Part shown: one piece after another, positions 30,425 through 31,708 of the stretch
Layout of the letters: every line of letters starts with the position of its first letter
Position numbering within the stretch: position 1 is the stretch's first letter
From: Cyclobacterium plantarum
GTDB lineage: Bacteria; Bacteroidota; Bacteroidia; Cytophagales; Cyclobacteriaceae
Direction of reading: 5' to 3'
Assembly (NCBI RefSeq): GCF_011290685.1
Contig: NZ_JAANYN010000003.1
Coordinates: forward strand, 231,341 to 295,340
DNA: 64,000 bases
Position numbers and translations under genes: made by a program
Notes under the pieces: model-generated
What the model was told of the DNA's origin: nothing
Database searches by the model: none
Seen by the model: only the letters and a program-made list of their open reading frames with translations

Positions 30425-30460
30425 AAAAACCCCGAATACAGCTTGTATAAGGGGTTTTTT
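30425..30460. terminator. Bidirectional terminator, glycosyltransferase / tRNA-Arg
   Basis: AAACCCC and GGGGTTT arms enclose an inner stem ATACA-GCT-TGTAT, with A-tract left and T-tract right. It serves the glycosyltransferase on the plus strand and the tRNA-Arg on the minus strand. Confidence 0.8.
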
Positions 30461-30461
30461 G

Positions 30462-30533
30462 TAGCCTCGACAGGAATCGAACCTGTATCTAAAGTTTAGG
30501 AAACTTCTATTCTATCCGTTGAACTACGAGGCC
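30462..30533 (-). tRNA. tRNA-Arg (anticodon CCU)
   Basis: This is a complete cloverleaf of 72 nt including the discriminator. The acceptor is GGCCTCG/CGAGGCT, the D stem GTTC/GAAT, the anticodon stem GAAGT/ACTTT with loop TTCCTAA (CCU), and the T arm ACAGG-TTCGATT-CCTGT. Discriminator A; CCA is not encoded. It decodes AGG. Upstream lie three truncated copies of its first 36 nucleotides, each linked to a GIY-YIG gene, so its original promoter is separated from it by about 950 bases. Confidence 0.95.
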
Positions 30534-30542
30534 AAATTACTA

Positions 30543-30788
30543 TTACTCCAAAGATTTCAAAAATTCTTTACCAATGCCAGATTTTAAGTATTTTTCTTTT
30601 TCTCGGGCTTTCTGCCTAGTTTCTGCTATCTCAGTATAAATTAAAATCCAAGGTCTAAAGCCTTTTGTGGATTTTGTTTTTCCTGCATTATGTTCCTTAA
30701 GCCTTTTTTCCATGTCACTCGTGAAACCCACATAGATACGTCCATCAAAAAGGCTTTTCAGCGCATAAACTGTGTAGGATTCTGTCAT
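30543..30788 (-). CDS. GIY-YIG endonuclease, copy next to the intact tRNA
   Basis: This 81-residue single-domain GIY-YIG nuclease resembles the small UPF0213-type proteins. The paired tyrosines are in YTVY (5-8) and RIYVG (17-21), the active-site Arg is R29 and the metal-binding Glu is probably E65 (EKEKYLKSG). The ATG at 30788 is six bases after the tRNA half ends. It ends SLE rather than SLEL, because the stop is TAA instead of the TTA-TAG of the other copies. No DNA-binding domain is attached, so target choice would rest on the domain itself. Confidence 0.85.
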   Translation of the reverse strand: MTESYTVYALKSLFDGRIYVGFTSDMEKRLKEHNAGKTKSTKGFRPWILIYTEIAETRQKAREKEKYLKSGIGKEFLKSLE

Positions 30789-30794
30789 AATTTC

Positions 30795-30850
30795 AGGAAA
30801 CTTCCCTGCCTGCCGGCAGGCAGGTATTCTATCCGTTGAACTACGAGGCC
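30795..30850 (-). pseudogene. tRNA-Arg 5' half (nt 1-36), copy 1
   Basis: Nucleotides 1-26 (30850-30825) and 27-36 (30804-30795) are identical to tRNA-Arg(CCU). They are split by the palindrome CCTGCCTGCCGGCAGGCAGG (30805-30824). Homology stops after the last anticodon base. Confidence 0.9.
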
Positions 30851-30856
30851 AAATTA

Positions 30857-31105
30857 CTATAACTCCAAAGATTTCAAAAATTCTTTACCAATGCCAGATT
30901 TTAAGTATTTTTCTTTTTCTCGGGCTTTCTGCCTAGTTTCTGCTATCTCAGTATAAATTAAAATCCAAGGTCTAAAGCCTTTTGTGGATTTTGTTTTTCC
31001 TGCATTATGTTCCTTAAGCCTTTTTTCCATGTCACTCGTGAAACCCACATAGATGCGTCCATCAAAAAGGCTTTTCAGCGCATAAACTGTGTAGGATTCT
31101 GTCAT
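30857..31105 (-). CDS. GIY-YIG endonuclease, middle copy
   Basis: The protein has 82 residues, identical to the copy at 30543-30788 apart from one added C-terminal Leu. At DNA level it differs by a few silent or terminal changes. All GIY-YIG motif residues (G21, R29, E65) are kept, so it should be functional. Confidence 0.85.
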   Translation of the reverse strand: MTESYTVYALKSLFDGRIYVGFTSDMEKRLKEHNAGKTKSTKGFRPWILIYTEIAETRQKAREKEKYLKSGIGKEFLKSLEL

Positions 31106-31111
31106 AATTTC

Positions 31112-31167
31112 AGGAAACTTCCCTGCCTGCCGGCAGGCAGGTATTCTATCCGTTGAACTACGAGGCC
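31112..31167 (-). pseudogene. tRNA-Arg 5' half (nt 1-36), copy 2
   Basis: It is organised identically to copy 1: tRNA 1-26, the 20-base palindrome (31122-31141), tRNA 27-36, then six bases to the GIY-YIG start. Confidence 0.9.
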
Positions 31168-31173
31168 AAATTA

Positions 31174-31422
31174 CTATAACTCCAAAGATTTCAAAAATTC
31201 TTTACCAATGCCAGATTTTAAGTATTTTTCTTTTTCTCGGGCTTTCTGCCTAGTTTCTGCTATCTCAGTATAAATTAAAATCCAAGGTCTAAAGCCTTTT
31301 GCGGATTTTGTTTTTCCTGCATTATGTTCCTTAAGCCTTTTTTCCATGTCACTCGTGAAATCCACATAGATACGTCCATCAAAAAGGCTTTTCAGCGCAT
31401 AAACTGTGTAGGATTCTGTCAT
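31174..31422 (-). CDS. GIY-YIG endonuclease, distal copy with G21D
   Basis: The protein has 82 residues. It carries two substitutions relative to the other copies: G21D in the YVGFT segment of the nuclease motif and T41A. The glycine follows the second tyrosine of the motif, so G21D may impair activity. It is the copy nearest the ancestral 5' end of the tRNA. Confidence 0.8.
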   Translation of the reverse strand: MTESYTVYALKSLFDGRIYVDFTSDMEKRLKEHNAGKTKSAKGFRPWILIYTEIAETRQKAREKEKYLKSGIGKEFLKSLEL

Positions 31423-31428
31423 AATTTC

Positions 31429-31484
31429 AGGAAACTTCCCTGCCTGCCGGCAGGCAGGTATTCTATCCGTTGAACTACGAGGCC
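31429..31484 (-). pseudogene. tRNA-Arg 5' half (nt 1-36), copy 3 (ancestral 5' end)
   Basis: It has the same layout as the other halves. Upstream of nucleotide 1 the sequence (AAAAAAGCAT) differs from the inter-unit spacer, so this is probably where the original tRNA gene began and where its promoter lies. Confidence 0.85.
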
Positions 31485-31620
31485 ATGCTTTTTTGAAAGG
31501 CTAATTTATTGAAAAACAGCCCTTAAGGTTTTATTTAAGCCAAAATCAGGGGCTTATCCCCCGAAAAACACCGCAATTTAAACCATTATTTTACTATTTC
31601 ACAAATAAAAGATGGGCTTA

Positions 31621-31652
31621 TTGTTCTTTTTGATTTTAATGCCTTATCTTTG
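31621..31652 (+). promoter_or_regulatory. Promoter of the rpsP operon
   Basis: TATCTTTG (31645-31652) is an exact TAnnTTTG match with TTG (31621-31623) 21 bases upstream, the same spacing as the guaB promoter. The leader would be about 50 bases. Confidence 0.6.
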
Positions 31653-31708
31653 CAGTCCAAAAATTAAGGATGGACGGGTTCCATCAATTCACTAAAAGTC
31701 AATATAAT

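Follow-up and report, generated by a model that had tools for sequence, protein, structure and literature searches.

The minus strand of a 64,000-nucleotide stretch of the Cyclobacterium plantarum genome (contig NZ_JAANYN010000003.1, positions 231,341 to 295,340; "the window", whose own numbering is used throughout) carries, from position 31484 to 30461, three tandem units of 317 bp, followed by one complete tRNA-Arg(CCU) gene and a terminator-like hairpin. Each unit joins a 5' part of the tRNA gene to a gene for a small GIY-YIG nuclease. We consider the units to be, more likely than not, copies of an intronless homing element that carries a spare piece of its target tRNA gene. Many further tRNA genes, in Bacteroidota and certain other bacteria, show the same arrangement, pointing to mobile elements able to enter essential genes while leaving them functional.

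Each unit consists of tRNA-Arg(CCU) nucleotides (nt) 1–26, a perfect 20-nt palindrome, nt 27–36 with a blurred continuation, the GIY-YIG gene (81–82 amino acids, aa) and a few further bases. By repeat comparison, unit 3, the outermost, occupies 31168–31484 and meets the native upstream flank of the tRNA gene (31485–31669), which reaches the rpsP reading frame; unit 2 spans 30851–31167, and unit 1 (30534–30850) adjoins the intact tRNA (30461–30533), which was called by ARAGORN and scored 66.5 bits with the Rfam tRNA model. A search of the source genome (G000) with tRNA-Arg(CCU) gave three partial matches and one full match, the intact gene being the only full one found. The hairpin that follows it, an inverted repeat at 30425–30459, has a comparable counterpart after the tRNA in relatives with an empty site. 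The nuclease genes lie at 31174–31422 (unit 3, 82 aa), 30857–31105 (unit 2, 82 aa) and 30543–30788 (unit 1, 81 aa). In the same order of units, the displaced nt 1–26 are found at 31459–31484, 31142–31167 and 30825–30850 (the last 100% identical to the tRNA), the palindrome at 31439–31458, 31122–31141 and 30805–30824, and nt 27–36, placed by alignment, at 31429–31438, 31112–31121 and 30795–30804. All of these features except the palindromes, which have no strand, are on the minus strand.

An earlier note on this DNA had described three exact 317-bp units, each with an uninterrupted copy of tRNA nt 1–36 in which the homology stopped dead at the last anticodon base, upstream of one intact tRNA-Arg(CCU). 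The three units, their length and the intact tRNA are confirmed, but the units are not exact, as they differ pairwise at 2–3 of the 317 positions. Nor are the fragments continuous: the palindrome, CCTGCCTGCCGGCAGGCAGG, had been overlooked between nt 26 and 27 of every unit, the only three sites at which it occurs in the source genome. The homology also fades rather than stops, with four of the six bases after nt 36 still identical to the tRNA (14 of 16 if counted from nt 27). The differences between units bear on the idea that the array is an assembly artefact. The source genome is a draft of 37 contigs, and several arrays in draft genomes are situated at contig ends, which speaks for an artefact; however, the source units have single-base differences of their own, and some arrays elsewhere are internal to contigs of 4.8 and 6.2 Mb (G106 and G004), making an artefact extremely improbable.

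No intron core was detected in the unit, as the earlier note had said: across the array, Rfam returned no intron family at expectation values (E) up to 5, and only tRNA reached its gathering score. The catalytic core and the interrupted, spliced tRNA of a group I intron are thus both lacking, the tRNA being intact and contiguous. There was likewise no sign of an integrase with its attachment site, GIY-YIG being the sole protein family found in the 317-bp unit, and a Pfam scan of the unit proteins revealed no HUH tyrosine transposase. The predicted RNA fold of the pseudo-tRNA was unremarkable, with a z-score of −1.06.

Two of the three array genes were tested against Pfam and matched PF01541 with E-values of 1.4e-16 and 1.5e-13. 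Among 11 sequences, Y8, Y19, G21, R29, H33 and E65 (the Y, YxG, R, H and E positions) were invariant, and we take these to correspond to the active site of I-TevI. As expected for a homing endonuclease, the protein therefore has a recognised endonuclease domain with conserved putative active-site residues. Libraries of defence systems and phages gave weak matches to homing endonuclease families. The nearest solved structures by sequence were UPF0213 proteins (PDB 1zg2, E 2e-20, and 1ywl), followed by the structure-specific nuclease SLX1 (7cq2, E 1e-7); the I-TevI structure itself (1mk0) matched only at E 0.024. The ratio of nonsynonymous to synonymous substitution rates was 0.03–0.29 in 13 of 15 protein pairs and saturated in the other two, indicating that the compared proteins are under purifying selection.

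The presence of the units at this locus is patchy within the genus. A match to rpsP adjoins tRNA-Arg(CCU) in all 12 genus genomes, the source included, and inspection of about 330 nt upstream of the tRNA found no unit in seven of the other 11. Three more (G006, G009 and G011) lack a nuclease gene but contain a 5' pseudo-tRNA copy into which palindromes are inserted. In G008, a copy of this kind precedes the terminal portion of a GIY-YIG gene, the relic of a unit like those of the array. In G003, the interval from the tRNA to the start of the rpsP homologue is 951 bp, or 3 × 317, shorter than in the source genome, and the flank at 31485–31700 aligns to this empty allele without gaps (200 of 216 positions identical). 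Since relatives lack the units and the G003 interval is shorter by precisely this amount, with matching flanks, the units must have been added to a tRNA gene that is normal in other respects. Both empty and occupied alleles thus exist at one site, as is seen with homing endonucleases.

To assess how widespread such genes are, genomes were searched with a GIY-YIG profile that, like our tRNA library, was built from the same loci that are described here. Matches were present in 12 of 12 genomes of the genus (at E 0.001), 81 of 98 of the family (1e-10), 190 of 295 of the class and 187 of 296 of the phylum (both at 1e-12), the class and phylum samples overlapping. The loci examined were the best-scoring ranked matches rather than a random sample. 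Counting one gene per locus, dropping repeated contexts and leaving aside three loci without a full gene in the sequence examined, we obtained 267 distinct small GIY-YIG genes, 194 of which had an intact tRNA gene within 400 bp, 39 only tRNA fragments and 34 neither. The corresponding numbers were 82, 22 and 15 of 119 in the genus and family sample, 29, 8 and 8 of 45 in the class sample, 68, 7 and 3 of 78 among named records, and 15, 2 and 8 of 25 in the phylum sample. The figure for "neither" is conservative, because the 34 include two arrays with a tRNA more than 400 bp away (L031 and L161) and three loci with tRNA-like pieces recognisable by eye (L187, L189 and L096). ARAGORN calls some palindrome-bearing pseudo-tRNAs tRNAs (e.g., L120 and L135), and a few intact calls and upstream or downstream labels are wrong.

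All 194 tRNA-linked genes were on the strand of their tRNA and none on the opposite one. An intact tRNA lay within 60 bp of 157 of the 267 genes (63 + 22 + 59 + 13), compared to 16 of 1955 reading frames of 60–250 codons in 20 control stretches. This control rate is if anything too high, because nested starts were counted and about half of the stretches had been chosen around GIY-YIG genes. The proximity of GIY-YIG and tRNA genes exceeds chance. The array protein itself found 80 named loci, in a search that may omit records very near the source genome, and 69 of these had a tRNA within 400 bp, on the same strand in all 69. By the records' own labels, they include Bacteroidota, Ignavibacteriota and metagenome-assembled genomes (MAGs) assigned to Patescibacteria, Omnitrophota and Elusimicrobiota. 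Among the 12 best named relatives (68–75% identity), which include Pedobacter, Niabella, Ferruginibacter, Litoribacter and Saprospiraceae, 11 were at tRNA-Arg(CCU) and one at tRNA-Arg(UCG). Phages and plasmids did not emerge as carriers, their 14 and 3 records, respectively, giving only distant matches, all below 60% identity.

The elements come in two mirror forms. The 5'-restoring form, to which the source array belongs, consists of a tRNA 5' fragment, the nuclease gene and a complete tRNA that starts close to the stop codon. In the 3'-restoring form, a complete tRNA is followed by a terminator, the gene, a remnant in which a palindrome replaces the anticodon arm and leads into the tRNA 3' part, and another terminator. 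Within 60 bp of a tRNA, 15 5'-restoring and 59 3'-restoring cases were counted in the family and genus sample, versus 50 and 18 among the named relatives of the array protein, so that restoration of the 5' half, which the earlier note had thought unusual, is the minority form in the former sample and the majority form in the latter.

The boundaries were compared in 45 clean 5'-restoring units, a set that excludes seven with another called tRNA within 120 bp upstream and ends that were palindrome matches. The fragments start at nt 1–4, and 43 of them show their first departure from the tRNA sequence no later than nt 26, within the D arm or next to it. The last matching nucleotide falls anywhere from 16 to 55, and at nt 36 just once, in the source array. 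While the survey of relatives thus showed that the arrangement recurs at many tRNAs, the fixed 36/37 boundary that the earlier note had drawn from this one array does not hold; relatives without a consistent boundary were what the note itself had named as a refutation. Its suggestion of a possible anticodon-targeting element is not supported either, both on the position of the first mismatch and on the finding that Leu and Arg relatives occur at several anticodons each (see below). Several tRNA genes have upstream tandem units of about 85–104 bp that consist of a tRNA 5' part and a palindrome, often with a piece of the T arm; these look like gene-less derivatives of the 5' form.

For the 3'-restoring form, terminators were compared. 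At tRNA-Met, the tRNA is immediately followed by one and the same terminator in six empty alleles, whereas five occupied alleles (one of them, in G011, with a truncated gene) have another terminator and then the gene; G008 has a third terminator. In the source genome, part of a terminator of the native type is still present on the far side of the last remnant. At tRNA-Asn in G004, a single terminator is common to four remnants and the intact tRNA, while that of the outermost remnant differs and begins like that of G011. This pattern is only suggestive, because tRNA-Asn terminators vary widely among relatives. Our reading of these sequences is that the insert of the 3'-restoring form would bring its own tRNA part together with its own terminator. 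In G008 (L228 and L236; G008:C22:140810 and 187152), some 46 kb apparently separate tRNA-Met from its GIY-YIG array, probably owing to a larger island integrated in the tRNA gene. We had considered ectopic transposition for this tRNA-Met element and for a tRNA-Asp element (L007), but reread both as probable displacement by larger islands at those tRNA genes, judging the flanks by eye.

Arrays with more units than the source array were found. A tRNA-Asp array, inside a 4.8-Mb contig, has 14 units at 345–346 bp, a tRNA-Met array has 10 at 457 bp, two tRNA-Asn arrays have five at 391–392 bp and four at 379 bp, and a further array has eight units at 359–368 bp, with no tRNA called in the stretch examined. 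The even spacing fits unequal recombination as well as repeated insertion. Units can stack, as the earlier note had proposed, but the data do not separate renewed insertion, its suggested route, from recombination. A nuclease gene that arose next to a tRNA by chance and was then duplicated in tandem, without any mobility, would also give evenly spaced arrays, and over the aligned parts the array proteins share 83–100% identity with the first copy, which is what unequal recombination predicts. This may explain how arrays grow. As a full account, however, it is at odds with the recurrence of such genes in the same anatomy at 13 tRNA isotypes, with the closest named relatives of the array protein, which are mostly in other families, and with the precise empty site and differing terminators, and we regard it as very improbable.

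The nuclease clades follow tRNA isotype. On a protein tree of 107 one-per-locus rows and 13 isotypes, from which odd ARAGORN calls ("SeC", "???") had been relabelled or dropped, isotype changed 22 times, whereas 200 shuffles gave 74.4 changes on average and never fewer than 67, and the form (5' or 3') changed nine times, compared to 18.7 and a minimum of 15. The tree was made with FastTree from 83 columns, and 60 of its 131 inner branches are open. The anticodon as the mark of specificity was considered and found unsupported, because Leu and Arg relatives each sit at several anticodons.

Agreement with isotype would also be expected if the protein were an RNase acting on its cognate tRNA and the pseudo-tRNA copies served as RNA decoys, the two forming an addiction pair like the arrays of type III toxin–antitoxin systems. 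The pseudo-tRNAs of the 3' form do retain D-arm and T-arm pieces around the altered hairpin, and in some arrays the repeats lie before the gene. However, the points at which units are truncated vary, and at tRNA-Arg three genus genomes keep a pseudo-tRNA with no nuclease gene and a fourth only a nuclease relic. Moreover, some relatives are found at a protein gene or in integrase-like frames (see below), and the differing terminator after an occupied tRNA is explained by insertion and not by decoys. An addiction pair therefore seems distinctly unlikely.

The palindromes add a further layer. A strong perfect hairpin lies within the fragment in 32 of the 45 clean 5'-restoring units, and in 15 of these it is the array's own 20-mer. 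Units with the identical 20-mer come from Bacteroidota and from MAGs that bear the labels Roizmanbacteria, Paceibacterota, Nomurabacteria and Omnitrophota. Hairpins followed the gene in 59% of 74 cases of the 3' form, versus 6–9% of 68 distant windows, and preceded it in 47% of 17 cases of the 5' form, versus 0–7% of 15 distant windows. The 20-mer was present in 10 of 60 family genomes and in 33 of 295 class genomes, in up to 43 copies, while its reversed pattern was present in none. Of 40 distinct places with the 20-mer, 12 were tRNA-like, compared to 3 of 98 random places in the same loci. A GIY-YIG match was present in 27 of the 33 class genomes with the 20-mer versus 163 of the other 262, a comparison made by eye. 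Because it is spread over class genomes, at mostly non-tRNA-like places, the palindrome is an independent repeat as well as a common component of Arg and Leu units. Two further observations concern palindromes: pseudo-tRNA 5' copies with Val, Gln, Gln and Leu matches (L215, L216, L217 and L219, respectively) carry the 20-nt palindrome, and L041, L044, L046 and L049 contain dispersed compound palindromes (around 1501–1518), with TCCCGAC-N4-GTCGGGA near CCGCCGCGGCGG-like or similar stems, bounded by AAATCCC- and GGGATTT-like ends.

These observations could mean that the GIY-YIG protein recognises the palindrome as a hairpin or cruciform and moves it, in the manner of the repetitive extragenic palindromic (REP) systems, with hairpin-rich tRNA genes serving as hot spots and as homes of the source gene. 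Both the enrichment of hairpins beside the gene and the dispersal of the 20-mer fit such a system, as do the nearest solved relatives of the protein, UPF0213 and the structure-specific SLX1. Against it, the 20-mer is confined to the array in the source genome, only 12 of its 40 places are tRNA-like, six of the 33 genomes that have it are outside the 190 with a GIY-YIG match (again by eye), and the measure used shows no strong perfect hairpin in 13 of the 45 units. We consider this explanation unlikely. Because the kinship with SLX1 and UPF0213 leaves room for hairpin recognition, the nuclease may nevertheless mobilise palindromes in addition to homing. A single GIY-YIG family in Bacteroidota and Patescibacteria would then both home into tRNA genes and mobilise dispersed palindromes: hairpins would enter tRNA arms, and the nuclease gene would survive by rebuilding the essential gene that it had cut. 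This would be a second, non-HUH solution of the kind found in REP systems, and we put it forward as a speculation, with more doubt than belief.

Relatives away from tRNA genes were characterised separately. Ten of 31 tRNA-free loci had an exact inverted repeat of 11–17 nt spanning the gene, mostly of a CCCCGTTAGAAAT-like kind and in some cases overlapping the end of the gene. Inverted repeats reaching 11 nt were found in 2% of 150 control windows and 12% of 227 tRNA-linked loci. In L345, L359 and L363, the GIY-YIG gene, near the middle of the locus and with inverted repeats on both sides, lies within frames whose translations look integrase-like by eye; these loci resemble very small insertion elements. 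In L347 and L348, the first 12–14 codons or so of a dTDP-glucose dehydratase-like gene are followed by the GIY-YIG gene and then by the dehydratase-like gene anew from its start, which we read as the same restoring anatomy on a protein gene. Other RNA genes did not appear as hosts: an Rfam scan of 20 loci with tRNA-free genes gave a single match, to the DUF805 RNA, and no tRNA or rRNA. Two loci stand apart. L037 has a GIY-YIG domain at 1495–1743 inside a frame of more than 1000 codons that is helicase-like by eye, and L009, with no tRNA called, has its gene at 1453–1701 on the minus strand, flanked by TTCGACTCCGCTCAG-type repeats.

In the homing explanation that we favour, a stand-alone nuclease of about 82 aa would be specific for one tRNA isotype and cut the as yet uninterrupted gene, within or close to the D arm for the 5'-restoring form and in the anticodon arm for its mirror image. 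Repair of the cut would copy the element into the tRNA gene, and the insert would comprise the nuclease gene plus a substitute for the severed part of the tRNA: either the 5' part or, in mirror-form elements, the 3' part together with a terminator of its own. The tRNA gene would thereby be rebuilt, leaving the displaced native part outside it as a remnant in which a palindrome is usually found. With the target still present in the rebuilt gene, units could accumulate by renewed insertion or by unequal recombination. The proposal of the earlier note, a minimal, stackable element in the tRNA gene that supplies a fresh 5' part and leaves a working tRNA downstream, was right in essence.

Several observations weigh against this explanation. 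From sequence comparison we infer that the nuclease cleaves the tRNA gene, where it cuts, that repair follows the homing route and what the palindrome does. For a homing enzyme with site specificity, a domain of 82 aa that has no distinct DNA-binding region is small, and 34 of the 267 genes are at no tRNA by the criteria used. The occupied allele holds an intact tRNA, leaving the usual immunity of a homing allele unexplained; the displaced copy is usually interrupted by a palindrome, yet the intact tRNA remains beside it. Plain homing does not account for the palindromes. In the source array, nt 1–26 of the fragment and of the intact gene are identical, so that nothing there reveals whether the restored part came from elsewhere, and at tRNA-Met no native-type terminator was found beyond the last remnant in the other four of the five occupied loci, one of which extends for only 414 bp. 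Finally, the isotype clades could reflect long residence at a locus instead of specificity.

If the explanation is correct, relatives of a minimal mobile nuclease that attacks essential tRNA genes and mends them are present in much of Bacteroidota: 187 of 296 genomes in the phylum sample match the profile, although only 25 loci of that sample were checked, of which 15 adjoin an intact tRNA. The explanation could then account for numerous tRNA pseudogenes and for numerous genes with a GIY-YIG nuclease annotation, and the family would offer small, isotype-specific nucleases whose choice of target is directly testable. Among the papers listed by searches of the open literature, judged by title and start of abstract, none described tRNA-linked bacterial GIY-YIG genes.

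The elements share features with several known systems. Integrase-borne elements also insert in tRNA genes and restore them, but no integrase was found in the 317-bp unit. Group I introns occur in the anticodon loops of tRNA-Arg(CCU), the same host gene; the array has no detected intron core, and its contiguous tRNA needs no splicing. The stand-alone GIY-YIG homing endonucleases of phages, such as the T4 Seg proteins, are likewise encoded by intronless genes near their target, but they are longer than the bacterial protein and have DNA-binding parts, and to our knowledge they do not restore part of a tRNA. UPF0213 and SLX1 have the same minimal GIY-YIG domain as the array protein, and we know of no tRNA-linked arrays of either.

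Like the palindromes described here, those of REP systems are short, lie beside a nuclease gene and are dispersed in some genomes. The REP-associated tyrosine transposases (RAYTs), however, are HUH enzymes according to the portion of PMC3733652 consulted, the main text of which does not contain the term "GIY-YIG". The closest described case that we have met is that of the mORFs of fungal mitochondria. In the excerpts of PMC3630166 used here, these are endonuclease open reading frames in essential genes (atp6 of Allomyces macrogynus; atp6, atp9, cox2 and nad3 of Glomus), the one in atp9 being a GIY-YIG gene. Each mORF brings its own foreign carboxy-terminal gene part, and the displaced native part is left beyond the open reading frame. 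The bacterial element would similarly bring a working part of its target gene and leave the displaced native part behind. By the same excerpts, mORFs reside in protein genes in mitochondria and replace carboxy-terminal parts only, whereas the bacterial elements reside in tRNA genes, come in 5' and 3' forms, encode an 82-aa enzyme, and include palindromes and tandem arrays. If our explanation holds, a strategy described for fungal mitochondria thus extends to the tRNA genes of bacteria.

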